Virus record (IMG/VR): IMGVR_UViG_3300044971_001916
Span: 1-34,834 of that record
DNA: 34,834 bases
Origin: a virus
Strand: one strand, 5' to 3'
Positions within the stretch are counted from its first letter, which is position 1; every line of letters starts with the position of its first letter. The notes under the pieces were generated by a model that worked only from the letters and a program-made list of their open reading frames with translations, was not told where the DNA came from and ran no database searches. Both the position numbers and the translations under genes were made by a program. Positions 3,510-29,949 of the stretch are shown piece by piece.

Positions 3510-3541
3510 TCGGTTCCTTTAAATACGCTGTTAATTTAACA

Positions 3542-3549
3542 AATAAATA
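3542..3549 (+). promoter_or_regulatory. Probable T4-type late promoter for the baseplate operon
   Basis: AATAAATA lies in the 63-base divergent gap, 24 bases upstream of the first baseplate ATG. It differs from the T4 late consensus TATAAATA by one base and is where a gp55-type sigma would act. The initiation point should fall about 6 bases downstream, leaving a short leader with GAGA before the ATG at 3573. Confidence 0.55.
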
Positions 3550-3572
3550 ATAAAAATGCAAGAGAAAATATA

Positions 3573-4882: not shown

Positions 4883-4885
4883 TCT

Positions 4886-10000: not shown

Positions 10001-10008
10001 ATACATTT

Positions 10009-10386: not shown

Positions 10387-10411
10387 CATAAAAGTACCAG
10401 AAAATAATTTG

Positions 10412-10419
10412 AATAAATA
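10412..10419 (+). promoter_or_regulatory. Probable T4-type late promoter for gene 6
   Basis: AATAAATA lies in the 52-base gap between genes 25 and 6. It is one base off the TATAAATA consensus and 19 bases before the gene 6 ATG. An AGG in the following leader serves as a weak ribosome site. Confidence 0.55.
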
Positions 10420-10438
10420 TTAAAAATAGGTATTTAGA

Positions 10439-13400
10439 ATGGCTATTACTACAAGACAAACAAGTTTACTAGTTCAACAAGATTGGACTAAAATCTACCA
10501 AACTTTTAGAGAAGCTGACTTCCAAAGTTTTGACTATGAAACTTTGCGTAAGTCAATGATTGAATATTTACGCACATATTATCCTGAAGATTTTAACGAT
10601 TTTACTGACAGTTCAGAATACATTGCGCTTATTGATTTAATTGCTTTTTTAGGTCAAAGTTTAGCTTTTAGAACAGATCTAAATGCACGTGAAAATTTTA
10701 TTGATACTGCCGAACGCAGAGATAGCATATTAAAACTAGCTCGTTTAGTTAGTTATAATCCCAAGCGCAGTACACCAGCTTCTGGATTTTTAAAATTTGA
10801 TAGTGTTAGTACCACTGAAGCAATTTTTGATAGTACTGGCATTAATCTAAGCAATATTATTATTAACTGGAATGACAGTTCAAACGAAAACTGGCTAGAA
10901 CAGTTCACTGGCGTGTTAAACGCTGCTATTCTTCCCACGCAGGCAATTGGTAAACCTGGAGCTTCAAAATCTCTCAATGGTGTCTCTACTGATGAATACA
11001 CAGTATCAACGCTATCTGGGTCTACAACTACATATCCTTATACAGCAACAGTGGGCGGTGTAACATTTCCTTTTGAAATTGTAAGTGCTACTAGTATTGA
11101 TCAATCATACATTTATGAACTGCCTCCAGCACCGGGCGGCAGTTTTAACTTTTTATATAAAAATGATAATCAAGGCAACGGCAGTAATAACACAGGATAT
11201 TTTTTCTACTTTAAACAAGGTAGTTTAAGTAATCTAGATTTTGTTATTACAGAAAGCTTGCCTAACAGAATCGTTAATATTAATTTTGATAATATTAATA
11301 ATATTGACGCTTGGCTATACAGTTTGACTAGCAGCGGAGCACTCAATCAATTATGGACACAAGTGCCTGCTGTTAATGGAATTAATGTAATTTATAATAA
11401 TACTGACGAGAGAAATCTTTATAGTGTTGCAAGTAGAGCAAATGATCAAATTGATTTAGTGTTTGGTGACGGTAGTTTTACTAATATTCCAGTAGGCAAT
11501 TTTAGAGTTTATTATAGAACAAGTAATAATTTAACTTATAAAATTACGCCAGATGAAATGGCTGGAATAACTGTTACTATACCATACCGTGGTCGTTCAG
11601 GTAGGGCAGAAACCCTAACAGTGAGAGCTAGTTTACAGTACACAGTTTCAAATGCTATATCAAGAGAATCTCTTGACAGCATAAGAACAAATGCTCCGCA
11701 GCAGTATTACACACAAAATAGAATGGTGACTGCTGAGGACTATAATGTTTTACCATTTACAACCTTCAACAATATTTTAAAATTGAAGGCAGTAAATAGA
11801 ACTAGTTCGGGCACAAGTAGATATCTTGATGTTATTGATGCAACTGGAAAATATTCTAGCACAAATATTTTTGCTCAGGACGGTTTAATTTATAAAGATC
11901 CTTACTATACAGATACAGTCACATTCCAATTTACTAGCACAGTAGAAGTAAGTGCAATAGTAAGAAATCGTCTAAAACCGTTGATCTCTAGCATTGCAAC
12001 TAGACATCTTTATTATGATACTGCAACTAGAACCCAACCGCAAGGGCCAACTATTGCAGCCACTAGTTTAACAGCCGGTAAAACCTATAAAATTATTACG
12101 TCAGGTTCTACTTCATTCACCAGCATTGGCGCAGCATCTAATGCAGCGGGTACAATTTTTACAGCCACGGCTGTGCCAGGATCAGGATCGGGCACAGTAG
12201 CATTAATAGCAACATGGACACAAACATCTGTAGCAAGCGGAAGAAGTTCTGGCACATTTGCTAGTCCCAATTACAATTTTTTATTGCAAGGCAGTCTAGT
12301 TAAATTTGTTCTACCAGCCGGCCAATATTTTGATGCTCAAAATCAAATACAAATTGGAACCCCTACTACCGAATTCCAGCGCACAGAGTTGTGGGCAAGT
12401 ATTATAAATTATGATAATCCTGGACTTACTTCGGTAGCAACTCTAAGTGTTGTTGTTCCTACTGGTGCTGTAATTGACCAAATTATTCCAGTATTTGCCA
12501 ATGATTGGTCTGAAGCATTAATCAATGATATTATTACTCAAATTTTAAGTTTTAAAACCTTTGGCCTCAGATACGATATTCCATCATTATCATGGAAAAT
12601 TATTGAAAGCCAGAATCTTGGAACCGGAGAATTTAGTCTAGCTAATGCTGGTAGCACAGCCGGCACAAGTTTAGATTCTAGTTGGTTTTTAAGTTTAACT
12701 TATCTAAACGGAGAATACACTGCTGTCAGCAGAGGTATAGATTATTATTTTGAAAGTGAACGGGAAACTAGATTTTATTTTGATCCTGATGTAAGAGTGT
12801 ATGATAGTAGAACTGCCACTACACTAAGTGATGCAATTAAAGTTTTGCGTACTAATACCGAGCCAGATTCTAGTGATTCAATATTCTATAGTCAAACTTA
12901 TAGAATTTGGGATGTAGCCCTAGGGCAGGACGGAATAGAAGACAATAGAAAAGTTAAAATTACTTTTCCTGATGATAACTTAGACGAAGTACCTGATGAT
13001 CCAGACTTGTTTGTCAATTTAGTTGCACCTACAGTAAATCCAGAAAACAAATTTGTATTCTTTGTAAAAAGCACCAACGAATATAATTTTATTACATTTA
13101 ATCCAATTGATCAGACTGAGGTTGTAAGTGAATATGGAACCGAAGAAGAAATTTTAGAAAATATTTTATTGTATCCTGATAACACAGTATTCTTTGCAAT
13201 AGATACACACTTGTTTTACATTTCAAGTGGCACTACACTACAAGAAACAACCGATTATATAGCAAGAGTAGGGCGCAAAGATTTAATGTTCCAATACAAG
13301 CATAACGCACCAAATAATAGAAGAATTGATCCTAGCCCTAATAATCTAATTGATTTTTATATTCTAACTAAGACCTATGCCAATGATTATTTTGCATATA

Positions 13401-13903
13401 TCACTGACACCGGCGGAAAAATTGCAGAACCCGCTCCTCCTAGTGTAAACGAACTTAGAACAGAATTTGAATCAATTGAAGCATTTAAAACAGTAAGCGA
13501 CAGTATAATCTACAATCCTGCTGTTTTTAAACCGTTGTTTGGTAGCAAAGCCAATCCAACATTGCGAGCTACATTTAAAGTAATTAAAAATCCTAATATA
13601 ATGATTAGCGATAATGAAATAAAAAGCCAGGTTATCGCTGCAATTAACACATACTTTGACATTAACAATTGGGAATTTGGTGAAACATTTTATTTTAGTG
13701 AACTAAGTGCATACCTGCACACATCGTTAGTGCCTAATGTAAGCAGCATTATAATTGTTCCGGCTGATACAGAGTCTCAATTTGGAACATTATTTCAAAT
13801 TAATGCTGATCCGGATGAAATTTTAGTAAGCGCCGCCACTGTAGATAATGTGCAAATTATACCGGCTATAACCGCATCACAAATTAATATTACTAGCTTG
13901 TAG
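10439..13903 (+). CDS. 6: gp6-like baseplate wedge protein, enlarged
   Basis: 1,154 residues. The N-terminal 115 residues carry the gp6 signature: FDYETLRKSMIEYLRTYYPE, DFNDFTDSSEYIALIDLIAF, LGQSLAFRTDLNARENFIDTA and RRDSILKLARLVSYNPKR. The C-terminal ~120 residues (SQVIAAINTYFDINNWEFGE, FYFSELSAYLH, DEILVSAATVDNVQII) fit the gp6/gpJ-type end. Dimers of gp6 form the inner ring of the baseplate and join the wedges. T4 gp6 is 660 residues; the extra ~500 lie mostly in the middle, where residues 542-589 are a copy of the dispersed beta module. The gene ends 8 bases before the giant gene, whose ribosome site AGGA overlaps this stop. Confidence 0.88.
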   Translation: MAITTRQTSLLVQQDWTKIYQTFREADFQSFDYETLRKSMIEYLRTYYPEDFNDFTDSSEYIALIDLIAFLGQSLAFRTDLNARENFIDTAERRDSILKLARLVSYNPKRSTPASGFLKFDSVSTTEAIFDSTGINLSNIIINWNDSSNENWLEQFTGVLNAAILPTQAIGKPGASKSLNGVSTDEYTVSTLSGSTTTYPYTATVGGVTFPFEIVSATSIDQSYIYELPPAPGGSFNFLYKNDNQGNGSNNTGYFFYFKQGSLSNLDFVITESLPNRIVNINFDNINNIDAWLYSLTSSGALNQLWTQVPAVNGINVIYNNTDERNLYSVASRANDQIDLVFGDGSFTNIPVGNFRVYYRTSNNLTYKITPDEMAGITVTIPYRGRSGRAETLTVRASLQYTVSNAISRESLDSIRTNAPQQYYTQNRMVTAEDYNVLPFTTFNNILKLKAVNRTSSGTSRYLDVIDATGKYSSTNIFAQDGLIYKDPYYTDTVTFQFTSTVEVSAIVRNRLKPLISSIATRHLYYDTATRTQPQGPTIAATSLTAGKTYKIITSGSTSFTSIGAASNAAGTIFTATAVPGSGSGTVALIATWTQTSVASGRSSGTFASPNYNFLLQGSLVKFVLPAGQYFDAQNQIQIGTPTTEFQRTELWASIINYDNPGLTSVATLSVVVPTGAVIDQIIPVFANDWSEALINDIITQILSFKTFGLRYDIPSLSWKIIESQNLGTGEFSLANAGSTAGTSLDSSWFLSLTYLNGEYTAVSRGIDYYFESERETRFYFDPDVRVYDSRTATTLSDAIKVLRTNTEPDSSDSIFYSQTYRIWDVALGQDGIEDNRKVKITFPDDNLDEVPDDPDLFVNLVAPTVNPENKFVFFVKSTNEYNFITFNPIDQTEVVSEYGTEEEILENILLYPDNTVFFAIDTHLFYISSGTTLQETTDYIARVGRKDLMFQYKHNAPNNRRIDPSPNNLIDFYILTKTYANDYFAYITDTGGKIAEPAPPSVNELRTEFESIEAFKTVSDSIIYNPAVFKPLFGSKANPTLRATFKVIKNPNIMISDNEIKSQVIAAINTYFDINNWEFGETFYFSELSAYLHTSLVPNVSSIIIVPADTESQFGTLFQINADPDEILVSAATVDNVQIIPAITASQINITSL
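12062..12205 (+). repeat. Dispersed beta module, copy 2
   Basis: Residues 542-589 of the gp6-like protein: LTAGKTYKIITSGSTSFTSI, then GTIFTATAVPGSGSGTVAL. It is the same module as at 9323 and 15697. Confidence 0.75.
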
Positions 13904-13911
13904 GATAAAAA

Positions 13912-16900
13912 ATGGCAGTTTTTAAGACTTTACAATTTTTACCAGAAATTTTCAGAACAGAAACAAATAAAAAGTTTCTTAATGCCACTGTTGATCAATT
14001 ATATAGTGAACCTAACCTAGTTAGAATAAATGGATACATTGGCAGAAAACTGGCTCCTTCCTATAAAGCCAATGATAGCTATATCACTGAACCAACACAA
14101 GATAGACAAAACTATCAACTAGAACCTTCGGTTATAATAAAAGATCCTGTTACTCAAGAGCTTAACTTTGCAACCACTTATACAGATATAGTTAATAAGA
14201 TTAATTTTTACGGAGGTTTAACAAGTAATCATAATAGGTTATTTGACAATGAATATTATTCCTACGACCCACAAATTGATCTTGATAAATTTATTAATTT
14301 TGTACAATATTATTGGTTAGAAAATGGGCCAGATGCTGTAACAATAAGTGCGTTGGATACTCCTCTTGAAAGAAATTTTAACGCAACATTTGATGCAACT
14401 ACTAACACATACAATTTTGTCGGATTTGATAATATTTCAAATCCATTGATTACGTTAGCTAGGGGCGGAACATATACGTTTACTGTAAATGATCCAGATA
14501 ACAAATTTTATATTCAGAGTAAACCAGGATCAACAGGTGTAGATCCCACTTTAAATAATCTAAATACTCGTGAAGTATTAGGTGTTACAAACAACGGTGC
14601 CGACGTCGGCACGATTTCATTCACAGTACCAACTTCTACTGCGCAAATTCAATGGACTTCAATGCCCATTGTTGACAATGTGAATTTTGCCACAAATCTA
14701 AGTTACCAAACTTTGCAAGGATGTTTGCTGTCTGAATTAAGCGAGTTAGGAGGTCTTGACGGACCAACTACATCTTATGATAACACTTCTGTGGTGTTTA
14801 TCAATAACTCATTTATTGATGACACGTATTGGCACAATACAGCAAGAGTTTTAGATAATGTAATTTACTTAGATCAAGACAATCTTATTCCCCAAAGTCA
14901 AAGGACCAGTATATACCAAATTAATGTGTATCCTGATAGTCAGGGCGACTTAAGAATATACCTTAGTCAAAAATTTGAAGTTTCAAATGAAAACAAAGTA
15001 AGAATCGTAGCAGGTGCTAGTAATTCAGGCAAAGAATTCTATAAAAGAACCAATATATATTTTCAGGTTCCTAACATTACAGCACCGTTGGATTATCTTT
15101 ACTATCAAAGTGACCAGTCTGACACTGCTTTTGGTACTATTAAATTAGCTTTAACTATTGATCCTGATAATGAAATAATTGGGGAACCTAATTATGTAAG
15201 CCCTTCTGGTGTTAATTTTACCAATGGATTAAAAGTTGAATTTGATTCTACGGCAGTTGCTCCTTATACAAATAACACTTATTATGTTGAAGGGGTAGGT
15301 ACAGCAATAAAATTAGTGGACGCAAGTAAGCTGGTTTCTTCTGAATTAGATTATAATTATTCAACCCCTGATTATATTACAATAAACAGAAGTTCAATTG
15401 ACCAAAACGCATGGTCAAGAAGTAATCGCTGGTTCCATGTTGAAGTTATTGAAAAAACTGCAGAATACAACAATACTGAATTAATTTTAGATCAAAATGT
15501 AAGAGCACAAAGACCTATCATTGAATTTAATTCAGACTTACAACTTTATAATTTTGGAGTAGAAGCAAAGGATCCTATTGATGTATTAGACACCTTAATT
15601 ACTAATGCATTTTCCCAGGTACAAGGCGTTGTTGTTCCTAAAACAACAGCATTTGCACCTACTTCGGCAGTTTTTTCTCTAATATTAAATTCTAGCGAAC
15701 TAAGAGTTGGTCGTACATATGAAATAACAACACTAGGAACAACAAATTGGGAAGCAGCCGGAGCCCCAGTAGGGTATACTGTTGGTACCACGTTTGTTGC
15801 CTCTGCGGCAGTTGCTGGCACAGGAACTGCTACTGATCTTGAAGTTGTAGTGTTAAACAATGGAGATAGAGTAGTTTTTACAGCCGACGAAGATTTAAAT
15901 ATCAGAAACAAAATTTACAGATTCAGTATAGAGCTTTTTAGCGAAAGCCCAGAGATGTATCGTGCTTATATACAGGAAACTGATGATTCTGAGGTTTTAG
16001 AAGGCAACACTGTTGCGGTAAACTCTGGCACCAATGGATCTAAGCAATGGCATTTCAATGGCGAAAGCTGGATAGAGTCTCAACAAAAAACCGCAGTTAA
16101 TCAACCACCTCAATTTGATATTGTTAGCAATCAAGGAATCAGTTTAAGTAATCAATCAGTTTACAACAACTCAAATTTTGTTGGAACTAAGTTATTTTCC
16201 TACAAAAGTGGCACCGGAAATAATGATCCAGTTTTAGGATTCCCTGTTAGTTATAAAAACTTGCAAACGCAAGGTGATTTACTTTTTGAAAACAATTTTG
16301 ACGTTGATACTTTTGCCTACAGATTATCAAGTGGTTTAGAAGAAATTAGTAATATTAATATTGGATTCTTACAAAAAAATCTTTCAAGAACCACCAATGA
16401 GCGTTTAAACATTTGGAATATTAATTTAGATTTTACCAAGCAATATCAACTTTTTAATTACATTTACGATGGACAAACAAATTTATTTCCAATTGATATT
16501 TTACCAGACCAGACAGTTGATACTCCTAATGTAAAAATAACAATTAACAATCAAAGAGTAGCCAACGGCAATTGGGCAATTACGCAAACCAATAATAAAT
16601 TAGCTATTCTCATAAACCCTGAAATTCTGACAGCAGATGATGTAGTTTTTATTTCAATCTTTAATTCTAAAGATACGTCTCAGCAAGGATTCTATGAAAT
16701 TCCGCTGAATTATGATATTAATGCTCTTAACAATGACATAACAACATTAACTCTTGGACAAATAAGAAATCATTTAATTGGGTTCAAAAATAACAGCACT
16801 GACATAATTGGCGATGTTCCTGGAAAAAGTAATATTAGGGACATAAATTTTGTCAATCGCGGTGGTACAATTGTACAACATAGTGCCCCGGCAGTGTATG

Positions 16901-19900
16901 CTGGTTTATTTTTAAATCATCCTACAATGAATTTTGTAGAATCGTTAAGATTAGCGTCAAAAGAATATACGCAGTTTAAACAAAAATTTCTAGAGCATGC
17001 TGCCAATTTAGAATTAGATAGAAACAATGTTGCGGCTTCTGTAGATACAATTTTATTAACTATTAACAATGTAAAGAACAGTTCTTTTCCATGGTTTTAT
17101 AGTGACATGGTTCCCTACGGTGATGACGAAAAAGTTGTCTTACCAAGTTATCAGGTATTTGACCCAGAAATTAGAAGTTATGAAATAACAAATATATTTC
17201 AAGACACTGTTATAAGCAACAAAGCTGTTCTAGTTTATATAACAAGAACCTTAAACAATATAACAACCACTGAACTATTAGTTAAAGACAGAGATTACAC
17301 ATTTGATCAAACTAGACCTGCTATTAACATTGCAGACAATTTTATTTTATTAATTGATGATATTTTAACAATTGTTGAATATAACAATACCGATGGAAGT
17401 TACATTCCTGAGACTCCGACCAAGTTAGGCATATATCCAAAATTTGAACCTGTAATTTATACAGACAACACTTATAGAACTCCTATAACAGTTATACAAG
17501 GACACGACGGTAGTATTACTCCGGCATTTGGTGACTTTAGAGACAAATTCTTATTAGAACTAGAAAGAAGAATCTATAACAATATTAAAATTGAATATAA
17601 TGTAACTAACTTTAATATTAACGATTACATTCCTGGGAAATTTAGATTAGTTGATTATACAAGGGCAGAATTTGATCAATTAATTGGGCAAAGCTTTTTA
17701 CGTTGGGTAGGTACAAACAGAATTGATTACACTACCAATTCTACGTTTGTAGCCTCAGATCCTTTCACCTGGAATTATAAAAAATTCAGAGACGTAATAA
17801 ATGGAGAAAGTCTGCCAGGAACATGGCGCAGCGTATTTAGATATTTCTTTGATACAGATAGACCGCACACCCATCCATGGGAAATGCTCGGTTTCAGCGA
17901 GAAACCAGATTATTGGGTGGATAGATACGGACCAGCGCCCTATACAGGCGGTAACTTAGTTTTATGGAGTGATCTAGAAGCAGGTTATATTCATGCAGGA
18001 ACAAGAGCTGGCATTGATTTTAGATATAGTCGTCCGGGATTGACTCAAATTATTCCTGTAGATGATAGTGGTAATCTACGTAGTCCGTCAGAATTTTTAG
18101 TTACAGATTATGATAGTGCAGCAGCTAATGTGAGTTACGCAGTAGGGGATATTGGACCTTCAGAGCTGGCATGGCGTAGAAGTAGTGATTATCCGTTTGC
18201 TATACATTTTGCTCTTGCCTTGGCTAAACCAGCTAGATATTTTGGCCTATTAATTGATGTTGAAAACTATTACAGAGATGTAGCAACAGGCCAGTTTTTA
18301 ATTGAAAGTAATGGTCACTTAAAACCAAGTATAGTAAAAATTAATGGTTACGAAGATGAATTAGGAAATACGCAAAGAGCAGCTAGTTATATAAATTGGA
18401 TTCGTGATTATGTAAAAAATTTAGGAATAGCTGATGCAAGCACACTAATTCACAATAATTTAAATCTAATAACTGTACAGCTTGCATATAAAATGTCTGG
18501 CTTTTCAGACAAAAAATTTATTGAGTTATTAGCAGAACAGTTTAGCCCAAGTAGCGTTAACGACAGTATTGTTGTACCTGAAGAAAATTATTCAATTGAA
18601 TTATTCAAAGGTGCTCCTTTAGATAAGCTTTCTTATTCGGCTGTAATTGTAGAAAAAAGTGCAAATGGCTATACTGTAAGTGGATATGATTTATATAATC
18701 CTTATTTTACATTAATACCTAGTTTACCAAATAACAATTCATATACAATTGAAGTTGGTGGTACCAGGGCTGTAATTTATAATGATTTTAAAAATCAAAG
18801 AATAGTCATTCCATACGGATTTGAATTTACTAAAAAACAAGAAGTAGTAGACTTTTTAGTAAGTTATCAAAGACATCTTGCTTCACAAGGGTTTATCTTT
18901 GAAGATAGAGATAATCAACTTAATGAGAAAAAAGATTTTATTTTAAGTGCTAAAGAATTTTTACACTGGTCTGATCAAGGCTGGAAACAAGGTAACATAA
19001 TAGTTTTAAGTCCGGTGTCAGATAACATTAAAATATTCAATGATACCACAGTAGTAGACGAAGTCACGAATACCGTAAATGGCAGTAGAGTCTTAGATAT
19101 TAATTATCAAACTATACGAAAAAATAATTTTACAATTTCAAGAGAAAGTGGATTATTTTCTTTAAAAGTAATTAGTACGGAAAGTGTTGGGCTAGCTACA
19201 TTTAATTTTGTTCAATATGAACATCTATTGATTTTAGACAACACCACTGTTTTTAATGATGTAATTTATGTACCAGAAACAGGAAATAGACAGTTTAGAT
19301 TAAAATTAATAGGTGCAAAAACAGGATTTTGGAACGGTGGCCTAGAACTTCCAGGATACATTTTCAGTGATAGGAACATTGAAGAATGGTTGCCTGGTGT
19401 AGATTACTTAAAAGGTACATTAGTTGAATACAAATCTCAACTGTACACAGCATTGCAAAATGTACTAGCAGCAGATCAATTCCAAGTTTCAAATTGGCAA
19501 CAAATTAATAGTTCAGCAGTAAAAACTGGATTAATTTCCAATTTTGCCACAAATTCGTCACAATCACTAAAATATTATGATATAAATGATCAACCATTTG
19601 ATGAAACTCTACAAATTTTTAGTAATAGTTTAATTGGTTTTAGACCAAGAGAATACTTTACTAATTTAGGTATTGACGTTACTACACAAAGTAAATTTTA
19701 TCAGGGAATTATTAAACAAGGCGGAACAATTAACGCCATCAATGCTCTTCGTGGCGCTAAGTTTAATATATTAGGTACACAACCTTTAAGTTTATTTGAA
19801 AATTGGGCCATACGTGTAGGTGAATACGGCTCTTTAGAAATCAATGATTTTATTGAATTTATTTTGCCCGAGGAAAACTTTAAGACAAATCCTTCGGTGT

Positions 19901-22900
19901 TTGAAGTTAATGGAGTAACAGCAGTTCCGGATATTGATGTAAACATTTTCACAGAAACTTCTGTTTATAAAAAAGGCGGCGCCTTTAAAAAGAATTTTTT
20001 ACGCGAGGAAAGCAAGGACCTTCCACTAGAATTTAAACCTTTGCCGGTTGCTGGCTTTGTTAATTTAGATGATGTTAATTACACTGTATTTGACATAAAA
20101 AATTATGCAGATTACAAAGACGTTGCAGATGAAATAGGAACAGGTTTTACAATTTGGACTGCTAGAGACCTTGATAATCATTGGAATGTTTACCGAGCAA
20201 CATTAATACCTGGTGCAGTCTTTATTCTCAGATACCAACTAGAATCCCAAGTAGAATTCGTAGTCAACGTAGACCACGGATTGATTGTTAATGATTTAGT
20301 TGTTTTGAAAAATTTTGATCCAAGATATAATGGAGTTTATCGTGTAGATTCAATTATTGACAGTACTAGATTTTTAGTAACAATGTATCAAAATTTACAA
20401 GATATAATAGATAGCGAAGCTGTAATTGCACTTGGCCTGCTTTATAAATTAGTAAGTAGTAAACTGGCTACACCTAATTCTATTATTGATAACACTCCTG
20501 TAACAGGTTATATTAAAAATGATAAATTTTGGGTCGAAGACATCGACGATCAAGGAACCTGGGGTGTATATACAAAAACAGATCCTTGGGCACATCGTGT
20601 TACACTAGAATTAGACCAATACACAGGATCAGATCATTTTGGAAAATCTGTAGCCATTGATAGATTTGCACGCTATGTTTATGCAGGTGCACCAGACAAT
20701 TCAGGAGGTCGCGTTGCTGGATTTATCAGAGGCGCAAATATTGACTTTGATAGAAAACCCGCTGTAGCAGCCAATCACATTTACTCTGGGGTAACCAATT
20801 TTGGGCAAGTATTGGCCACTGGCCTTAAAGACAACGTAGACAGTTATCTGGCTGTAGCAGATCCTACTGCTGCAAGTGGAAAAGGTGTTGTTTACATTTA
20901 TAAAAATTTAGGATTAATAAACATTTTAACAGACATTGCAGGAGTTGCTGATGATAGTTTTGGTTACTCATTGGCCATGTCAGATGACGCTCAATACTTG
21001 TATATTGGTGCGCCGGGTGCAAATAAAGTTTTTTGTTATAGTTTAGATTATCCACGGTTAACTTCTGTTCAAGAAATTATAGCTTCAGGGGCAACAACAT
21101 TCACTTTACAAACTACTGCTACAGTATCAATTGATTTAATTGTCTTGGCACCACTATCGGGCGCTGAATTCTTACCAACCATTGATTATACCCTTGCACA
21201 AGTAACAAATGCTATAACAGGTTTTACAAAAACTGGAACGCCGGCATTAGGTACAGGAGCGTTTTACAACATATCTGCAACAGGTGGAACCGGAACAGGT
21301 GCTAGATTTAGAGTAGAACGATCTGCTGTGACAGGGTTACCATCAGATGAATATGTTGTAACATTAGAAAATGGGGGATCTGGTTATACAAATGGTGAGA
21401 CCCTAACAATTGCAGGAGCAAGCGTAGGAGGAACTACGCCAGCAAACAATATTACTGTTACAGTTACCGGAGTTGGTGCTGCGACTAACATAGTGTTTGG
21501 TGTTGCCCCAGCTCTATTTTTAAAAATTGCAGTACAGAAAAAAGCTGATAGATATACACTGATTGATTCACTGCCTTTGGGATCAGAAGTTGCTGCTTTT
21601 AGTAGATTTGGTTCAGCATTGGCATGTAGTTCAGATGGATCAACCATAGCTGTTGGAGCAGAGTCAGCCAACGTAGGTGGTGTTTCAAACGCTGGTTCAG
21701 TTTATGTATATCATAGAACCAAGACAGAAATTGTCACCAATGGATTAACAAACATCTATACGTTGCCAGATAATTTTAATAATGTTTATAGAGTATTTTT
21801 TAACGGAACTTTAATATATGATCCAACTAATGTGCCAGCCGGTCAAAGTGCTGTGTATTTTATTACTGGTGGAAATACATTAAACTATGGTGACTCTGGT
21901 ACAGCTACACTGCCACGTAATAACAAATTCTTTGTTGAAACTAATCAATTTGTATTAGATCAAATATTATATCAAGAAACACCAACTAGTTTTGTAAGTA
22001 ATTTTGGATCAAAACTTGCTATGTGTTCAAGCGGATGCAACATTTACGTAGTAAGCTCCGAATATAAAGAACAAGACTATACAGCCGGACTAGTTACTAG
22101 ATTTTTAAATCTAGGTAGAGTATACGGAACAGTGATAGGCACCATTACAAATCCTACGGTTACTGCAGGACAAAGAATTGTAATCAATGATAGAACAATT
22201 ACTTTTACTGGAACTACTTTAACTTCGGTTATCAATAATATTAATAATGCAGTTATTACCGGAGTACGTGCCTCTAATGCAAATAACAGACTAAGAATTG
22301 ATAGTGACGTAGTCTTAGTTGGTCAGAAACTAAGTTTATTAAATGGAAGTACAGGAACACCTTTAGCTGACCTTGGTATAGAAACCTATCAATATACACA
22401 AATTATTCAACATCCTGAAAATGATCAACAATCGTTTGGAATTAGTTTAGCTGTTGATCAAGACAGTGGAACACTAGCAGTTGGTAGTGCTGGCGCAGAC
22501 ATCTTTCAGCCAATGGCGTTTGATCCTTTACTGGTACAGGCAACTATTTTTGATAGCGGCACAACCACTTTTGCTAATAAGGTTAAAGATAGTGGTGCAG
22601 TCTTCATATTCAACTTATTAGAAAATCCCAACGAAGACGCCGATAACCCATCACTGTTTGCTTACAGTCAAAAACTATTTGGTCCCAACTTGGAAGATAA
22701 TGTTGATTTTGGAGCTGGAATAGGCTTAACCTCAGACTATCTTTTTGTAGGTTTGGCTAATGCTACTGTACAGGATACAGTCGCCCAAGGCGGATTGTTG
22801 CATTACTATTATAATGAAAATGCCAAGAGTGGTTGGGAATTATCAAGAAACAAAGAGCCACGTGTTGATACAAGTGCAATTGGTTCGGCTTTTATATATA

Positions 22901-25900
22901 ACAAAGTATCTCAAGAAATTTTAGACTTTTTTGATTACATTGATCCTGCCAAAGGAAAATTACTAGGTGTAGTAGATCAAGAATTAGATTATAAAGAAGA
23001 ATATGATCCTGCTAGTTACAATAAATCTAGTAGAACAGATACAATTAATAACACCAGTTTTTATTGGTATGATAGACAGGTTGGTAGAACCTGGTGGGAT
23101 TTAAGCACTGTTAGTTTTATTGATTATGAACAAGCCAGCATTACCTACCGAGTAAAAAATTGGGGAAGATTATTCCCAGGGAGTCAAGTAACGATTTATG
23201 AATGGGTAGAAAGTAATTTCTTACCTAGCCAGTATGTAGATGCAGTAGGCGATGGTGTTCCAAAATATACTGATGATTCTGCATATTCATCAATTAGTTT
23301 AGTTGACCCAGCTACTGGTATAATTACACAAAAATATTACTACTGGGTTTCTGGCAAAACTGGAGTTGATACTTTAAAGGCCAAGAGAACTTTAAGTGTT
23401 AGATCTTTAGAAAACTATATAACTAATCCTAAAGATCAGAATATACCTTATTTAGGATTAATAGCTACCAATGCGGTTGCAATTTATAACGTAGAAAATA
23501 AATTATCCGGCGATGATATTGTTTTACATCTAACAGTATCAGAATCAAGAAACAATAATTTAATACACAATGAATGGCAGTTAGTACAACAAGGTGCTTC
23601 AGCTGATTCAATTCCTAACAGAGCTGTTCAAAAATTAAAAGACAGTCTAGGCGGATTTGATGTTAATGGAAACGCAGTTCCAAGTCCATTATTAAGCCCT
23701 CAGGACAAATTAGGAATATTGAATAATCCTATTCAGTCAATAGTTCACGACAGATTAGCTGCTCTTAGACTTTATGTAGAAACATTAAATTCGACACTAA
23801 TTAAATATCCTATTTTATTAACAAACTCTGTTTCTCTTTTAAAAACAGAAGATCCATTGCCTATTAGTGGATATGACTTAGAAACTAATAATGTTAATGA
23901 TTTGCTTTACATTGACACAAGTCAATTGCCTGATGGGTATAAAATTTTAGTAACCAGTGATTCAGATCAAAATGGATTGTGGACATTATACAAATATAAT
24001 TCTTCCACCGGTCTTTTTGATCTTGAACGAATTCAGGGCTTTAAGACAACTAGATTTTGGAACCCAATTGATTGGTATGACAGTTCATATCAAGTTGGTA
24101 AAACAATAGACTACATCGTAAACATTTATTCTGATATCCAGGCTTTGACTCCACAGCCGTCGTCTTACATAAAAGTGTTAGATGGAGGCAACGGAAATTG
24201 GTTGTTATACGAAGTACAGTCAGACGGGTCTTTAAATTTAGTTGGAACTCAAAATGGTACGCTTCAAATAAAAACTGAAGTATACGATCCTAGCTTAGGC
24301 AGTGGTTACGATACTCTGTCATTTGATATTACTGCTCTAGATCCTAATCCTACACAAGAGTTTAGAAATATATATGATGGGGTTTCACAACAAATTCTTG
24401 TAGGAAATCTTAGTACAGAATTTAATGGATTATTCCTAACTTTATTAAACTTTATTTTCATTGAACAAAAGAGTCCAGACTGGGTAATTAAAACTTCCTT
24501 TATAGACGTCTTCCACAGTCTACGAGCACTAGATCAATTTCCTAACTTTGTTAAAGATAATCAAGATTTTTACATTGATTACATTAACGAAATTAAACCT
24601 TACAGAACAAAAGTAAGAGAATATATTCCTAATTATTTTAATCAAGATCCTCTTGATGGCAACTTTACAGACTTTGATTTACCTAGTGCTTATGATTCTC
24701 GTTACAGAACATACAGAGCACCTGACGTAACATTAGAAAGCGATCAGGAACTATTACAACAAGATGAATATGTAAATTGGTATGAAAATTACAAATTTAA
24801 AATTACTGATTATATTGTTGGCAATATAGGATTAAATTATATATTACCACCAAACGTTGAAATTACCGGAGGAGGAGGATCCGGCGCTACAGCTATTACT
24901 ACCTTATTTGGTAATGGCAGTGTAAGCGGAGTTATTGTAACCAATGCAGGTTCGGGTTATACTTCGACTCCTAATGTGTTCATTAACGGCGATGGCGTTG
25001 GTGCTACTGCATATCCTTTATTAAAGAATGAATATTATTCACTACAAGCCAATTTAAGCTATAACCTAGTAAGAAGCATAGACACTGTTCTTAAATTTGA
25101 CAGATTTGAATATTCTAGCAATTTACAAATTTGGGAACCAAATGCATCTTATCCTGCCACTATAGTGACCTCTGGAAATACAACAAATAGTGTTGGCAAT
25201 TTATATGTAAGTTCAGGAAATATTATTGTCTATAACAATAATGCTTATTTGGCAACCAATGCTGAAGCTAATGTATGGCAAGCAAGTACAATTTATCCTG
25301 TAAACAGTCTTATTACTTTTGGAGGTAATGTTTATACCACGACTGGTAATGTATTTGCTACCTCTAGTAGTTTAATTAATACTGCTAATGTTCAGTTAGT
25401 AGAAAATTTTGATTTTACAAGATTTTCAAGAATAGAAAGTGGTAACGTTCTTCTTAACGCACTAGACAGAATAGTATCTTACTACAGTCCAGAAGTTGGC
25501 ATGCCAGGCAAAGATCTTGAACAATTAGTATCAGGTATCGTATATCCTGCGTCAAAAGTTGCTGGCCCAGTATTTAGAGCCAATGCATTTGAAGTTTCTA
25601 GCAACTTAGTATCGTTTAATTATGAAGGCTTAACTATTAATAGTGGCAATGTCAGCCAACTTAATTTCTTAGATCGTGGTTTTGAATTAAACAAAGCAAT
25701 TAGAATCTCAGCTAATGTTCCATTCCAATTTCAAAATAACGGATACTTCAAGATTATAAGTGTTGATAGAGATACTATGACATTGACAGGTCAGCCTGTT
25801 GAAACCACTTACAAAATAACATTAGACACAACTATTTCAGCTCAAGCAGGAGATTATATCACGCAGGCAAATACTGCTGGCAATGCATGGGTACTTCAGT

Positions 25901-28104
25901 CTGTTACTAATTCTAATAAACTAGACATAATCTATATTAATCCTGAATTTACCACTGTGGCAGCAGGAAATGTATTTGCTAATTTGCAAATATCAAAAAA
26001 TGGCACACCTCTTAGTGCTAATATTTCAAGTATAACTAATTTTGATAAAACATTTACTCCAATTGCATCTGGTGGTAATGTAGATGTTACTATATCTTAT
26101 CTTGATGAAGATTTTATTATTGATTCCAATATCTACAGCACATATCTTGATACTGCCTTGGGCACTAGACCTCAGGATATTAATATAGTTGGTGGCGCAT
26201 ACTATGACATCTATTCAAGTCATGCACCTGAAGAACTAGTACCAGGTCGAATGTATGACTCTTTAGAAATGCGTGTGTTCACTAATACAGTAGCAAACAC
26301 TAGCACTTATGGCTTTAGAGTATTCAAGCCAATGAGTGCAAACATTGAGTATACACGAATTAGTGCTAATTCTACCACAACACTAGCAGCTAATCTAAGT
26401 TTAAGTGATGATCAAATTATAGTTTCTGATGTAACTAAACTGCCTGATCCAAATCCTGTTGCTGGTATACCTGGCGTCATATTTGTCAATGGCGAAAAAA
26501 TTACTTACTATCAAAAATATGACGCAGCAAAGCTGGCTACTGCTGTTCCTTGGACTGCTAACACTGTGTTTGCTCTAAGCAGTTTAATTGTATTTGATAG
26601 CAACACCTATTTGACCACTGGTAACGTTTTTGCTAACGCAAACTCATATGTTAATTCAGCAAACATTCAGCTTATTACTGCAAATTCATTGCGACAAATA
26701 CGTCGCGCTGTTGATGGAACAGGTGCAGCTAATATAATACTGCTAGGTAATTTAGTTTCAGACAGTTCAGAAAGCACACAGTTAATACCTGATGCGCAAA
26801 TTGCAAATATAAGCACAGTCAGCGGTAATATTACAGTCACTTCAAACGTTACTTACAAGGTTGTATTGGGCGAACCAATTACGGCTAACATAGGTGACTA
26901 CATTACTCAATTTGTAAACAATACAGGCAATGCTAGAATATTATCTAATGTGACTAACAGTAAAGTTGTAGCCGTTGATATTGTATCGCCAGGATTTTAT
27001 GCTAATGCAAATCTTGATTATACATTAACATTGAGCAGTCCAATTACTGCCAACCGTGGAGATCGTATTGGGCAATTCTTTGATAACAACACGTACTTGT
27101 TAGAGTTATCAAGTCCTATTACATCAAACATTGGCGATTATATTACTCAATTCCAAGGCAATACATATAGATTAGAACTATCAAGTCCTATTAGTGCCAA
27201 TGTTGGAGATTATATTACACAGTTCGTTGGTAATCTATCTAACTTGTTAGTCATTGGCTCTAACACTGTTTCTAATATTGTTAATGTACAGTTTGTGACA
27301 GCCAATGTAGAAAACTTACAGTTCGCTACAAACGTAGGTACGAGAGTAAACATTGCTAATCTTTACAGTAGCGGCGGTAGTGTGTTTAGTCAAACAACTG
27401 CTAATATTGTAAGTATAACACTCAATGGCTTTAGTCCTAATGTATTCAGTGTAGGTAATGCAAATTTACGTGTAACACAAAATGTTGTAAATTCAAATGT
27501 CATACCAGTACAGTTTATAACCGGTACTACATCTGTTATACAAACAGCAGCTAACATTGGTACTCGTGTTAATATTGCAAATATTCAAGCTGGAACGTTT
27601 AATTTTTCAACAGCAAATATTTCCTCAATTACTCTTGCCCCAAATGTTCAGAGCAATCTAAGAGTTAGAGCAAATGTTACTTCGTCTGTAACTGTTCCTG
27701 TTGAGTTTATTAGTGGAAACTTAAACACACTTAAAACAGCCGCAAATGTTGCAACAAGAATTATAAATGGCAGTACGTTCACTAATGTTAACATTGTTTC
27801 TATTAATTTAGAAGGATTTGGTAGTAATTTGTTTGGCAATGCTGGCACAAGAATCAATCTAGTAAGTACAACTTCAGGTGTATCTAGTCTTGTAGCTAAT
27901 ATTGTTTCTTTACAACCGCTTGGCCAAGTAACATTTACAAGCAATGCCGAATATCCTAGAATTTTACTTTCAAATGGTAATGTGGTCCTTACAAGCACTA
28001 CAGTGTTTAGAAGTAATATATGGGAACAATTTAGCACAACTTTACAAAATAGCACAACAGTAGGTGCGCAGTTTATAAGATTGGAGCCTAGTTACATACC
28101 ATGA
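13912..28104 (+). CDS. Giant 4,730-residue baseplate protein in gp7 position
   Basis: One unbroken frame of 14.2 kb. The N-terminus (FKTLQFLPEIFRTETNKKFL, VRINGYIGRKLAPSYK, DLDKFINFVQYYWLENGPDA) and segments such as SGFSDKKFIELLAEQFSPSS (about 1525-1545) and YINEIKPYRTKVREYIPNYF (about 3555-3580) recall large baseplate wedge proteins of aquatic T4-like phages. T4 gp7, the wedge organiser encoded between gp6 and gp8, has 1,032 residues. Modules seen: a beta module (596-642), a CBM5/12-like W-x(5)Y module (1824-1865), seven FG-GAP-type blades (2240-2967) with two inserts, a GSGYT module (3646-3703), more W/Y modules (about 3741-3830, 4214-4255) and tandem repeats (4314-4441, 4454-4657). I infer a wedge scaffold carrying outward adhesin modules. 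The stop overlaps the next ATG (ATGA). The gp7 assignment is by position. Confidence 0.75.
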   Translation: MAVFKTLQFLPEIFRTETNKKFLNATVDQLYSEPNLVRINGYIGRKLAPSYKANDSYITEPTQDRQNYQLEPSVIIKDPVTQELNFATTYTDIVNKINFYGGLTSNHNRLFDNEYYSYDPQIDLDKFINFVQYYWLENGPDAVTISALDTPLERNFNATFDATTNTYNFVGFDNISNPLITLARGGTYTFTVNDPDNKFYIQSKPGSTGVDPTLNNLNTREVLGVTNNGADVGTISFTVPTSTAQIQWTSMPIVDNVNFATNLSYQTLQGCLLSELSELGGLDGPTTSYDNTSVVFINNSFIDDTYWHNTARVLDNVIYLDQDNLIPQSQRTSIYQINVYPDSQGDLRIYLSQKFEVSNENKVRIVAGASNSGKEFYKRTNIYFQVPNITAPLDYLYYQSDQSDTAFGTIKLALTIDPDNEIIGEPNYVSPSGVNFTNGLKVEFDSTAVAPYTNNTYYVEGVGTAIKLVDASKLVSSELDYNYSTPDYITINRSSIDQNAWSRSNRWFHVEVIEKTAEYNNTELILDQNVRAQRPIIEFNSDLQLYNFGVEAKDPIDVLDTLITNAFSQVQGVVVPKTTAFAPTSAVFSLILNSSELRVGRTYEITTLGTTNWEAAGAPVGYTVGTTFVASAAVAGTGTATDLEVVVLNNGDRVVFTADEDLNIRNKIYRFSIELFSESPEMYRAYIQETDDSEVLEGNTVAVNSGTNGSKQWHFNGESWIESQQKTAVNQPPQFDIVSNQGISLSNQSVYNNSNFVGTKLFSYKSGTGNNDPVLGFPVSYKNLQTQGDLLFENNFDVDTFAYRLSSGLEEISNINIGFLQKNLSRTTNERLNIWNINLDFTKQYQLFNYIYDGQTNLFPIDILPDQTVDTPNVKITINNQRVANGNWAITQTNNKLAILINPEILTADDVVFISIFNSKDTSQQGFYEIPLNYDINALNNDITTLTLGQIRNHLIGFKNNSTDIIGDVPGKSNIRDINFVNRGGTIVQHSAPAVYAGLFLNHPTMNFVESLRLASKEYTQFKQKFLEHAANLELDRNNVAASVDTILLTINNVKNSSFPWFYSDMVPYGDDEKVVLPSYQVFDPEIRSYEITNIFQDTVISNKAVLVYITRTLNNITTTELLVKDRDYTFDQTRPAINIADNFILLIDDILTIVEYNNTDGSYIPETPTKLGIYPKFEPVIYTDNTYRTPITVIQGHDGSITPAFGDFRDKFLLELERRIYNNIKIEYNVTNFNINDYIPGKFRLVDYTRAEFDQLIGQSFLRWVGTNRIDYTTNSTFVASDPFTWNYKKFRDVINGESLPGTWRSVFRYFFDTDRPHTHPWEMLGFSEKPDYWVDRYGPAPYTGGNLVLWSDLEAGYIHAGTRAGIDFRYSRPGLTQIIPVDDSGNLRSPSEFLVTDYDSAAANVSYAVGDIGPSELAWRRSSDYPFAIHFALALAKPARYFGLLIDVENYYRDVATGQFLIESNGHLKPSIVKINGYEDELGNTQRAASYINWIRDYVKNLGIADASTLIHNNLNLITVQLAYKMSGFSDKKFIELLAEQFSPSSVNDSIVVPEENYSIELFKGAPLDKLSYSAVIVEKSANGYTVSGYDLYNPYFTLIPSLPNNNSYTIEVGGTRAVIYNDFKNQRIVIPYGFEFTKKQEVVDFLVSYQRHLASQGFIFEDRDNQLNEKKDFILSAKEFLHWSDQGWKQGNIIVLSPVSDNIKIFNDTTVVDEVTNTVNGSRVLDINYQTIRKNNFTISRESGLFSLKVISTESVGLATFNFVQYEHLLILDNTTVFNDVIYVPETGNRQFRLKLIGAKTGFWNGGLELPGYIFSDRNIEEWLPGVDYLKGTLVEYKSQLYTALQNVLAADQFQVSNWQQINSSAVKTGLISNFATNSSQSLKYYDINDQPFDETLQIFSNSLIGFRPREYFTNLGIDVTTQSKFYQGIIKQGGTINAINALRGAKFNILGTQPLSLFENWAIRVGEYGSLEINDFIEFILPEENFKTNPSVFEVNGVTAVPDIDVNIFTETSVYKKGGAFKKNFLREESKDLPLEFKPLPVAGFVNLDDVNYTVFDIKNYADYKDVADEIGTGFTIWTARDLDNHWNVYRATLIPGAVFILRYQLESQVEFVVNVDHGLIVNDLVVLKNFDPRYNGVYRVDSIIDSTRFLVTMYQNLQDIIDSEAVIALGLLYKLVSSKLATPNSIIDNTPVTGYIKNDKFWVEDIDDQGTWGVYTKTDPWAHRVTLELDQYTGSDHFGKSVAIDRFARYVYAGAPDNSGGRVAGFIRGANIDFDRKPAVAANHIYSGVTNFGQVLATGLKDNVDSYLAVADPTAASGKGVVYIYKNLGLINILTDIAGVADDSFGYSLAMSDDAQYLYIGAPGANKVFCYSLDYPRLTSVQEIIASGATTFTLQTTATVSIDLIVLAPLSGAEFLPTIDYTLAQVTNAITGFTKTGTPALGTGAFYNISATGGTGTGARFRVERSAVTGLPSDEYVVTLENGGSGYTNGETLTIAGASVGGTTPANNITVTVTGVGAATNIVFGVAPALFLKIAVQKKADRYTLIDSLPLGSEVAAFSRFGSALACSSDGSTIAVGAESANVGGVSNAGSVYVYHRTKTEIVTNGLTNIYTLPDNFNNVYRVFFNGTLIYDPTNVPAGQSAVYFITGGNTLNYGDSGTATLPRNNKFFVETNQFVLDQILYQETPTSFVSNFGSKLAMCSSGCNIYVVSSEYKEQDYTAGLVTRFLNLGRVYGTVIGTITNPTVTAGQRIVINDRTITFTGTTLTSVINNINNAVITGVRASNANNRLRIDSDVVLVGQKLSLLNGSTGTPLADLGIETYQYTQIIQHPENDQQSFGISLAVDQDSGTLAVGSAGADIFQPMAFDPLLVQATIFDSGTTTFANKVKDSGAVFIFNLLENPNEDADNPSLFAYSQKLFGPNLEDNVDFGAGIGLTSDYLFVGLANATVQDTVAQGGLLHYYYNENAKSGWELSRNKEPRVDTSAIGSAFIYNKVSQEILDFFDYIDPAKGKLLGVVDQELDYKEEYDPASYNKSSRTDTINNTSFYWYDRQVGRTWWDLSTVSFIDYEQASITYRVKNWGRLFPGSQVTIYEWVESNFLPSQYVDAVGDGVPKYTDDSAYSSISLVDPATGIITQKYYYWVSGKTGVDTLKAKRTLSVRSLENYITNPKDQNIPYLGLIATNAVAIYNVENKLSGDDIVLHLTVSESRNNNLIHNEWQLVQQGASADSIPNRAVQKLKDSLGGFDVNGNAVPSPLLSPQDKLGILNNPIQSIVHDRLAALRLYVETLNSTLIKYPILLTNSVSLLKTEDPLPISGYDLETNNVNDLLYIDTSQLPDGYKILVTSDSDQNGLWTLYKYNSSTGLFDLERIQGFKTTRFWNPIDWYDSSYQVGKTIDYIVNIYSDIQALTPQPSSYIKVLDGGNGNWLLYEVQSDGSLNLVGTQNGTLQIKTEVYDPSLGSGYDTLSFDITALDPNPTQEFRNIYDGVSQQILVGNLSTEFNGLFLTLLNFIFIEQKSPDWVIKTSFIDVFHSLRALDQFPNFVKDNQDFYIDYINEIKPYRTKVREYIPNYFNQDPLDGNFTDFDLPSAYDSRYRTYRAPDVTLESDQELLQQDEYVNWYENYKFKITDYIVGNIGLNYILPPNVEITGGGGSGATAITTLFGNGSVSGVIVTNAGSGYTSTPNVFINGDGVGATAYPLLKNEYYSLQANLSYNLVRSIDTVLKFDRFEYSSNLQIWEPNASYPATIVTSGNTTNSVGNLYVSSGNIIVYNNNAYLATNAEANVWQASTIYPVNSLITFGGNVYTTTGNVFATSSSLINTANVQLVENFDFTRFSRIESGNVLLNALDRIVSYYSPEVGMPGKDLEQLVSGIVYPASKVAGPVFRANAFEVSSNLVSFNYEGLTINSGNVSQLNFLDRGFELNKAIRISANVPFQFQNNGYFKIISVDRDTMTLTGQPVETTYKITLDTTISAQAGDYITQANTAGNAWVLQSVTNSNKLDIIYINPEFTTVAAGNVFANLQISKNGTPLSANISSITNFDKTFTPIASGGNVDVTISYLDEDFIIDSNIYSTYLDTALGTRPQDINIVGGAYYDIYSSHAPEELVPGRMYDSLEMRVFTNTVANTSTYGFRVFKPMSANIEYTRISANSTTTLAANLSLSDDQIIVSDVTKLPDPNPVAGIPGVIFVNGEKITYYQKYDAAKLATAVPWTANTVFALSSLIVFDSNTYLTTGNVFANANSYVNSANIQLITANSLRQIRRAVDGTGAANIILLGNLVSDSSESTQLIPDAQIANISTVSGNITVTSNVTYKVVLGEPITANIGDYITQFVNNTGNARILSNVTNSKVVAVDIVSPGFYANANLDYTLTLSSPITANRGDRIGQFFDNNTYLLELSSPITSNIGDYITQFQGNTYRLELSSPISANVGDYITQFVGNLSNLLVIGSNTVSNIVNVQFVTANVENLQFATNVGTRVNIANLYSSGGSVFSQTTANIVSITLNGFSPNVFSVGNANLRVTQNVVNSNVIPVQFITGTTSVIQTAANIGTRVNIANIQAGTFNFSTANISSITLAPNVQSNLRVRANVTSSVTVPVEFISGNLNTLKTAANVATRIINGSTFTNVNIVSINLEGFGSNLFGNAGTRINLVSTTSGVSSLVANIVSLQPLGQVTFTSNAEYPRILLSNGNVVLTSTTVFRSNIWEQFSTTLQNSTTVGAQFIRLEPSYIP
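15697..15837 (+). repeat. Dispersed beta module, copy 3
   Basis: Residues 596-642 of the giant protein: ELRVGRTYEITTLGTTNWEA, then VGTTFVASAAVAGTGTATD. It is the same module as at 9323 and 12062. Confidence 0.75.
19381..19506 (+). other. Carbohydrate-binding-like module in giant protein
   Basis: Residues 1824-1865: EEWLPGVDYLKGTLVEYKSQ, then LYTALQNVLAADQFQVSNWQ. The spacing W-x(5)Y-x(2)G-x-x-V-x(5)LY-x-A...W resembles the chitin/cellulose-binding CBM5/12 fold. Looser relatives lie at 25132-25401 and 26551-26676. Confidence 0.45.
21223..21474 (+). other. GSGYT-type beta module inserted in the propeller
   Basis: Residues 2438-2521: GTGAFYNISATGGTGTGARF, ENGGSGYTNGETLTIAGA and TTPANNITVTVTG. 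It lies between blades 3 and 4. A related GSGYT module occurs at 24847-25020 (VIVTNAGSGYTSTPNVFING). Confidence 0.55.
22141..22380 (+). other. Flagellin-IN-like module inserted in the propeller
   Basis: Residues 2744-2823: GQRIVINDRTITFTGTTLTS, VINNINNAVITGVRASNANN, RLRIDSD and a closing LADLGI. The layout resembles the flagellin/hook-associated IN motif (strand with I-x-(I/F), TL-x-x-(V/I)-x-x-IN-xA, GV-A, L-x-I). It is placed between blades 5 and 6. Confidence 0.4.
24847..25020 (+). other. Second GSGYT-type beta module in giant protein
   Basis: Residues 3646-3703: ITGGGGSGATAITTLFGNG, then VIVTNAGSGYTSTPNVFING. It shares the G-G/A-GSGYT core and Gly/Ala-rich flanks with the module at 21223. 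Confidence 0.5.
26851..27234 (+). repeat. C-terminal repeats with SSPIT/GDYITQ core
   Basis: Four copies of a (Y/L)-x-L-x-L-S-S-P-I-(T/S)-(A/S)-N-x-G-D-Y-I-T-Q-F unit begin near 26851, 27019, 27097 and 27166. The last two are 69 bases apart. The second copy has diverged to GDRIGQF. A more distant copy is at 25807 (YKITLDTTISAQAGDYITQ). These are protein-level repeats in the giant structural protein. Confidence 0.8.
27271..27880 (+). repeat. C-terminal 63-75-residue repeats with ANxGTRVNIAN core
   Basis: Three copies begin near 27271, 27496 and 27685. Each has (N/I/V)-V-x-V-(Q/E)-F-(V/I)-(T/S), then (T/A)-N-(V/I)-(G/A)-T-R-(V/I), then a TANI-x-SI-(T/N)-L strand. The third is the most diverged. 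They close the giant protein. Confidence 0.75.
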
Positions 28105-28809: not shown

Positions 28810-29949
28810 ATGCCATATAATGTAACCAAAACTGACGGAACAGCGATTGTAGTTCTAGATGGAACAAAAGATACACTTAGTACTAGTCTAACATTATTCG
28901 GACGTTTAGCACAAAATTACGGCGATCAACAAAATGAAAATTTTGTGCGTCTATTAGAAAATTTTGCGTTTGAGGTAAGTCCAGCGTTTCCAATTCAAGG
29001 TCAACTTTGGTTTGATAAAACTTCAAATAACATTAAGGTATATGATACAAATAATACATGGGTAACTGTTGGTAGCGTTATTCAAGGTAATGTTGATATT
29101 AGCGGTAATTTAGAAATAGGTTCAACTGGATTTACAGTAAAAAATATAACAGGCGATATTGAATTTAGAAATTCCTCTAACCTCGCTGATATTAGTTTCT
29201 TTAGCAATGTAAATGGAGTTTCAACTAGATCACTTTTTGTAAACGGTAATACAGGTTTATTAGAAGTTGCTGCAAATGCTACAGCAAATTTTGGACTAAC
29301 AACAAAAATTTATGTTGATAGTATAATACAGGCTGCAACCTCGGGTGGCGACACTAATTTATCATCAAACGTTGGTATTATCAATGCAAATTTAGCTTCA
29401 CGAGTAGATGCCGAAAACGCATTAAGAGCAAATATCACTGCTGCTAACGCACAAATTGCACTAAGAGATACTATCTCTCGAGTAGATTCTATCAATTCTG
29501 CCATAGATACCGCAATCACATCAAATGTAAGTGTAATTAATGCTAACCTAGCTCAAAGATACAATCAAACATTGGCAGTTGAAACAGCAATGTTAGCTAA
29601 TGTAAATGCAGCCAATTTAAGATTAACCGGCGCCTTATCTACTGCAGGAACTGGAATACAAACACAAATTGATAATTTGACTGCAAATTTAAATGCAGTG
29701 AATGTAGCAAAAGACATTGCATTGTTTTCAAATCTAGCTCTTAAAGCAGACGTTTCGAGTCCTGCCTTAAGCGGAGTTCCTACTGCACCTACGGCAGCTT
29801 TTGGAGCAAACACACTACAAATTGCCACTACACAATATGTAATGACTAGATCGGTGTTTTGGGACGGAAGTAGAAAATTTGTAAGTACCGCCGATCCTAG
29901 TGCCAGTGACGGAAATAACGGTGATATCTGGTTCAAATATCTTCCCTAA
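28810..29949 (+). CDS. Tail fibre protein with long helical stalk
   Basis: 379 residues. The N-terminus (1-90) has ITK/VTK-TDGTAIVVLDGTKD, NFVRLLENFAFEVSP and PIQGQLWFDKTSNNIKVYD. It is related to the N-terminus of the fibre gene at 31016, which suggests a shared attachment domain. Residues about 165-325 are rich in Ala, Asn, Ile and Leu with repeated SRVDAENALRANI-type heptads, consistent with a trimeric coiled stalk. Near the C-terminus SPALSGVPTAPTAAFGANTL, then QIATTQYV, is a classic tail-fibre segment, followed by DGNNGDIWFKY. I infer a short or side fibre on the baseplate. The ribosome site is weak (GGATAATAAA) and the gene starts four bases after the previous stop. Confidence 0.75.
   Translation: MPYNVTKTDGTAIVVLDGTKDTLSTSLTLFGRLAQNYGDQQNENFVRLLENFAFEVSPAFPIQGQLWFDKTSNNIKVYDTNNTWVTVGSVIQGNVDISGNLEIGSTGFTVKNITGDIEFRNSSNLADISFFSNVNGVSTRSLFVNGNTGLLEVAANATANFGLTTKIYVDSIIQAATSGGDTNLSSNVGIINANLASRVDAENALRANITAANAQIALRDTISRVDSINSAIDTAITSNVSVINANLAQRYNQTLAVETAMLANVNAANLRLTGALSTAGTGIQTQIDNLTANLNAVNVAKDIALFSNLALKADVSSPALSGVPTAPTAAFGANTLQIATTQYVMTRSVFWDGSRKFVSTADPSASDGNNGDIWFKYLP

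Follow-up and report, generated by a model that had tools for sequence, protein, structure and literature searches.

Which protein serves as gp7 in a phage whose gene behind gp6 encodes a chain of 4,730 residues? This question is raised by the window analysed here, an IMG/VR record of 34,834 bases in which matches to gp53, gp5, gp25 and gp6 give the gene order gp53...gp5...gp25-gp6-giant. The original prediction had assigned the giant protein the T4 gp7 position, and this has been borne out: within the wedge cluster its gene comes next after gp25 and gp6. The main features of the locus are the following:

4580-4882 (+): gp53-like baseplate wedge protein
10009-10386 (+): gp25-like baseplate wedge protein
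10439-13903 (+): gp6-like baseplate wedge protein, 1,154 aa
13912-28104 (+): giant protein, 4,730 aa
28101-28805 (+): PHROG 11259 protein, 234 aa

The giant gene is, as predicted, one unbroken frame, running from an ATG, with AGGA upstream as a plausible ribosome site, through 4,730 codons to its stop with zero internal stops. Upstream, the gp6 gene extends to position 13903; downstream, the giant ORF shares 4 bases (ATGA) with the next gene, whose start is at 28101. This next gene, encoding the PHROG 11259 protein, is kept beside the giant gene in many relatives and has no assigned function; homologues are found in PA5oct, Atu_ph07, Phosso, SCTP-2, Vibrio 2.275.O, XacN1 and CM1. It occupies the place of T4 gp8, without resembling gp8. 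Further downstream, a glycine-rich protein with (GGC/GGT)n-type tracts (29953-30963; local GC up to 48%, G skew +0.25) is possibly a tail-tip or adhesive protein. It is flanked by two fibre-like proteins (28810-29949 and 31016-32668) with a related N-terminal segment (PHROG 14394), which suggests that they attach through a common domain and differ distally.

A family of giant virion proteins

The giant protein matches the PHROG 10938 profile (3,324 positions, named only 'virion structural protein') in four stretches across most of its core, with E=0 and 1,094 bits. When it was used as a tblastn query, relatives were found in 84-88 cultured-phage records, and relatives are encoded at 79 distinct viral-contig loci. 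Counting the loci at which the end of the frame is present, there are 42 homologues, each a single frame, with lengths of 3,326-4,730 aa, and several longer ones run off contig ends and fall outside this count. Full-length single-ORF relatives occur in RaK2, CBB, PA5oct, Atu_ph07, Phosso, SCTP-2, a Vibrio phage and dozens of IMG/VR contigs. Thus, the size that the original prediction had considered exceptional is not so within the family, nor beside a cyanophage gp7 of 4,156 aa. Judged by its sequence, the window protein adds one more member to a family of giant virion proteins of jumbo phages that is already known but functionally uncharacterised and whose named members include:

RaK2 gp465/ORF070: 3,326 aa
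CBB_236: 3,340 aa
PA5oct gp355: 3,857 aa
Atu_ph07 gp180: 4,449 aa
Phosso giant protein: 4,555 aa
XacN1 ORF325: 3,313 aa, distant member
Stenotrophomonas phage CM1 giant protein: about 3,148 aa, distant member

The gene is located right behind gp6 in PA5oct, Atu_ph07, Phosso, RaK2, CBB, Vibrio 2.275.O and XacN1. The exception is SCTP-2, where the giant gene and gp6 are at separate loci, so that the linkage to gp6 is not absolute. This Salicola phage also has a second giant ORF (L004, 4612-13902), of about 3,097 aa, directly upstream of its giant gene. In Klebsiella phage K64-1, record NC_027399 annotates 11 hypothetical proteins under the match and the other record, AB897757, lists one; the split in NC_027399 is probably an annotation problem.

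Virion mass spectrometry is available for cultured relatives. CBB_236 was represented by 21 unique peptides, which cover 7.7% of it, and the gp6 homologue CBB_237 by 13; the published list of CBB baseplate proteins omits CBB_236 (PMC5259590). The 382-kDa phAPEC6 gp245, called hypothetical, gave 17 unique peptides against 21 for the adjacent gp6-like gp244 (PMC7247149); it was assigned to the family on the basis of its size, its gene order and tblastn matches. The PA5oct record flags gp355 as detected by ESI-MS/MS. None of the three sources names the protein gp7. Relative to gp6, the peptide count of the giant per kDa is low, which fits a low-copy protein. The virion location is thus documented in the relatives from CBB, phAPEC6 and PA5oct, the window phage itself being uncultured.

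Taken by themselves, the extreme length and mosaic content of the frame could suggest that separate genes had been fused by an assembly or sequencing error, an outcome that the original prediction had named as counting against it. However, the same single ORF recurs in dozens of independent contigs and in phages that have been cultured and sequenced, an independent IMG/VR contig (L017) equals the window base for base over 3912-19814, covering the gp6/giant junction and the 5' half of the giant ORF, and the virion peptides of phAPEC6 gp245 derive from a protein of 382 kDa. These observations already refute such a fusion for the whole family, and for the window it can be regarded as excluded, its probability being negligible.

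Conserved core and variable modules

An alignment of 43 full-length proteins separates a conserved core (about residues 1-145, 500-555, 660-1830, 1900-2010, 2990-3600, 4055-4195 and the C-terminus) from segments that vary among lineages. Along the window protein they are arranged as follows:

Residues 1-145, 13912-14346 (+): N-terminal block, conserved to RaK2, PA5oct, SCTP-2, XacN1 and CM1
Residues 150-480, 14359-15351 (+): beta-rich, found in the close clade but not in the RaK2/CBB/Vibrio relatives
Residues 500-555, 15409-15576 (+): conserved core block
Residues 555-650, 15574-15861 (+): small insert, missing in most relatives
Residues 660-1830, 15889-19401 (+): conserved core, including the deeply conserved block 1214-1557
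Residues 1825-1855, 19384-19476 (+): CBM5/12-like module, below the Pfam cut-off
Residues 1900-2010, 19609-19941 (+): deeply conserved block with helices modelled at low to moderate confidence
Residues 2215-2985, 20554-22866 (+): FG-GAP beta-propeller region and further inserts
Residues 2440-2520, 21229-21471 (+): GSGYT-type insert within the propeller, only in some relatives
Residues 2990-3600, 22879-24711 (+): conserved core, with 2986-3108 conserved to XacN1/CM1
Residues 3640-3705, 24829-25026 (+): GSGYT module, PHROG 460 cross-hit
Residues 3783-3830, 25258-25401 (+): CBM-like module, copy of 4205-4258
Residues 4055-4195, 26074-26496 (+): conserved C-terminal block
Residues 4205-4258, 26524-26685 (+): CBM-like module, second copy of a 30-residue repeat
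Residues 4310-4660, 26839-27891 (+): two repeat families, LSSPITANxGDYITQF and xVQFITxxxxxxxTAANxGTRVNIAN
Residues 4700-4730, 28009-28101 (+): conserved C-terminus

The mosaic build that had been described from the window is largely right as regards a core, an optional propeller and repeats. The propeller reaches 40.8 bits with PF14312 (E=2.5e-10, three stretches), over the curated cut-off of 23 bits, and its region is optional: occupancy of 2215-2985 is 12-40% in the RaK2, CBB, Vibrio, PA5oct and SCTP-2 relatives, and XacN1 has a 137-residue gap. The GSGYT modules (at residues ~2489 and ~3680), the two repeat families (~4310-4660) and the 30-residue pair (3800/4225) score 82-111 in windowed self-comparison against at most 46 in shuffled sequences, confirming the modules and repeats noted originally. 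The repeat-rich part is largely lineage-specific, being nearly private to the window member and one other member (L016). The sugar-binding-like modules fared less well, as what is seen is a weak CBM5/12-like resemblance, at 16.3 bits below the curated threshold of 26.2 bits. As for the blocks described as wedge-like, their conservation is real and their wedge nature putative. The match to PHROG 460 would have given a 'head closure' identity, which was rejected because the match falls on the GSGYT module, and this module aligns to cyanophage gp7 at several sites too.

The search for gp7

None of the comparisons made with known gp7 proteins detected a homologous block. With hhalign, 11 overlapping segments of the family gave nothing significant against T4-type gp7 (with and without Aeh1/F86) or the N-termini of cyanophage gp7; the sole 25% match, which pairs 3840-4210 with a cyanophage segment, was discarded because it concerns a small beta module and not the gp7 motif. 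The Pfam gp7 models (Gp7_helical, Gp7_5th, Gp7_6th and Baseplate_wedge) do not match the family, T4 and S-SM2 serving as positive controls, and the gp7 motif SKDFYxxxGT was not found in it. No family member appears among the best 60 of 1,435 records in a tblastn search with T4 gp7, and profile searches of PDB sequences with three alignments returned nothing. The same profile method does detect gp6, the gp6 of the family matching that of T4 at 3.5e-5 and that of S-SM2 at 1.6e-8. Comparison with gp10, which the original prediction had proposed, revealed no similarity to any block, and profiles of gp8, gp9 and gp11 likewise failed to match any segment of the giant.

AlphaFold2 models were obtained for residues 1-1190 (pLDDT 79.6) and 1190-2215 (pLDDT 73.9). 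Foldseek searches of both against the PDB, which contains T4 gp7, retrieved no gp7, residues 1-110 being modelled at low confidence; the hits were weak (tail protein HRP29, cupredoxin-like proteins, E1 enzymes and endosialidases; best E=1.5e-3), and those in BFVD were mainly the giant family itself. The homology to gp7 expected in the conserved blocks, on whose structural match the original prediction had made its case depend, was therefore not detected by hhalign and Pfam, nor by Foldseek over the folded span 1-2215, in which the likeliest core-bundle segment, residues 1-110, was modelled at low confidence.

Residues 1-145 are a candidate core-bundle segment, whose helices are predicted by AlphaFold2 with low confidence. 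In XM1 gp17, core-bundle helices lie in the segment that corresponds to residues 1-110 (PMC10457771), and the low confidence of these residues might be expected if the segment folds only with gp6. The N-terminal block has an LP motif at residues 10-11, and its start, KTLQFLPEIFR, resembles KSINYLPPNLR of a short protein encoded behind gp6 in Rhizobium phage RHph_TM40, a likeness that is not significant alone. A viral scan for relatives of this short gp7-like protein found none.

T4, T6SS and further contractile systems share a conserved (gp6)2-gp7 core (PMC10457771). The complement of wedge genes was analysed by six-frame searches of nine complete family genomes. In all nine gp25 was found, and in none did gp7 (PF23786, PF21427), gpI (PF09684), gp8 (PF09215) or gp9/10 (PF07880) exceed the cut-off; among the controls, gp25, gp7 and gp8 were recovered in T4 and S-SM2 and gp9/10 in T4 only, and gpI had no positive phage. 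The lack of recognisable gp7, gp8 and gp10 may reflect divergence alone. Since the core is conserved and no other recognisable gp7 is present, we infer that the giant is the best candidate for its third chain.

Probable role in the wedge and known systems

Position and elimination together suggest that the giant probably performs the gp7 job in jumbo myoviruses of the RaK2/PA5oct/Atu_ph07 type. Against this role stand the lack of any profile, Pfam or Foldseek match to gp7 in the blocks tested, while the gp6 of the same phages does match, and the separate loci of the two genes in SCTP-2. One alternative is that the giant is a genuine orthologue of T4/cyanophage gp7 that has diverged to an extreme degree and has been enlarged by module insertion as in cyanophages. 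The gp7 position behind gp6, the GSGYT modules of a cyanophage gp7 of comparable length and the N-terminal LP motif agree with such an origin, which we regard as possible but doubtful, as no block detectably resembles gp7 by profile or, over residues 1-2215, by fold, and the SKDFYxxxGT motif was not found in the family.

It could also be thought that the giant is a peripheral adhesin, fibre or whisker-like part whose gene merely shares the baseplate operon, gp7 being the product of another gene that has escaped recognition. The propeller, CBM-like and repeat modules would suit such a part, as would the PHROG category, which is only 'head and packaging: virion structural protein', and the virions of CBB and phAPEC6 bear hairy appendages without assigned genes. 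However, it is the core, and not the adhesin-like modules, that is conserved to RaK2, XacN1 and CM1, the gene follows gp6 in tight synteny in most relatives, and the nine complete genomes yielded no other gp7 candidate, all of which makes a peripheral part unlikely.

If the giant does perform the gp7 job, each wedge would contain a single chain of it, attached to the gp6 dimer probably by way of the conserved N-terminal 145 residues. The long conserved core would form the outer part of the wedge, replacing separate gp7, gp8 and gp10, and the propeller, CBM-like, GSGYT and repeat modules, which are lineage-variable insertions, would be displayed on this scaffold, where they might plausibly serve fibre docking or glycan contact. 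The host-contact arms of the original prediction are a speculation drawn only from the weak CBM-like matches, the propeller and the repeats. In the most far-reaching version, one unrelated giant polypeptide does the work of gp7, gp8 and gp10 and makes up the entire periphery of the wedge; the baseplate arms would then consist of one chain per wedge, its surface diversified by swapping of propeller, carbohydrate-binding and repeat modules, in place of several separately assembling proteins. This version seems improbable to us.

In any case, a widespread virion protein of 380-520 kDa, often encoded right behind gp6 in jumbo phages, has had no assigned role. Should it be a wedge scaffold, the third subunit of (gp6)2-gp7-type baseplates can be an entirely different and much larger protein, and host-range determinants might be sought in the modular inserts.

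Among known systems, T4 gp7 (1,032 aa; PDB 5hx2, 5iv5) is likewise encoded directly behind gp6, but it is 4.6 times shorter than the giant, in which its Pfam domains, motifs and folds are undetected (folds over residues 1-2215). The gp7 of cyanophage S-SM2 (YP_004322253.1; NC_015279, 9547-22017), annotated as such in the order gp25-gp6-gp7, occupies the same place behind gp25-gp6, reaches a similar size with its 4,156 aa and also contains GSGYT modules. However, its N-terminal part has a 34-residue motif in common with T4 gp7 726-759 (hhalign E=1e-7) and a recognisable gp8 follows it, whereas with the giant only the GSGYT module aligns, core homology being undetected. S-SM2 and the jumbo phages thus represent at least two lineages with a giant protein at the gp7 position, and no core homology is detectable between these proteins.

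Within the jumbo phages, XacN1 ORF325 and the CM1 protein have five blocks in common with the window protein (4-145, ~500-547, ~1214-1557, ~1874-2008 and 2986-3108), without a propeller-sized insert and with unrelated sequence outside these blocks. The RaK2-like and PA5oct-like giants of PHROG 10938 have a homologous core, a single ORF and, mostly, a place directly behind gp6; compared with them, the window member ranks among the largest, and several cultured relatives are without its propeller region, its CBM-like modules and its C-terminal repeats.
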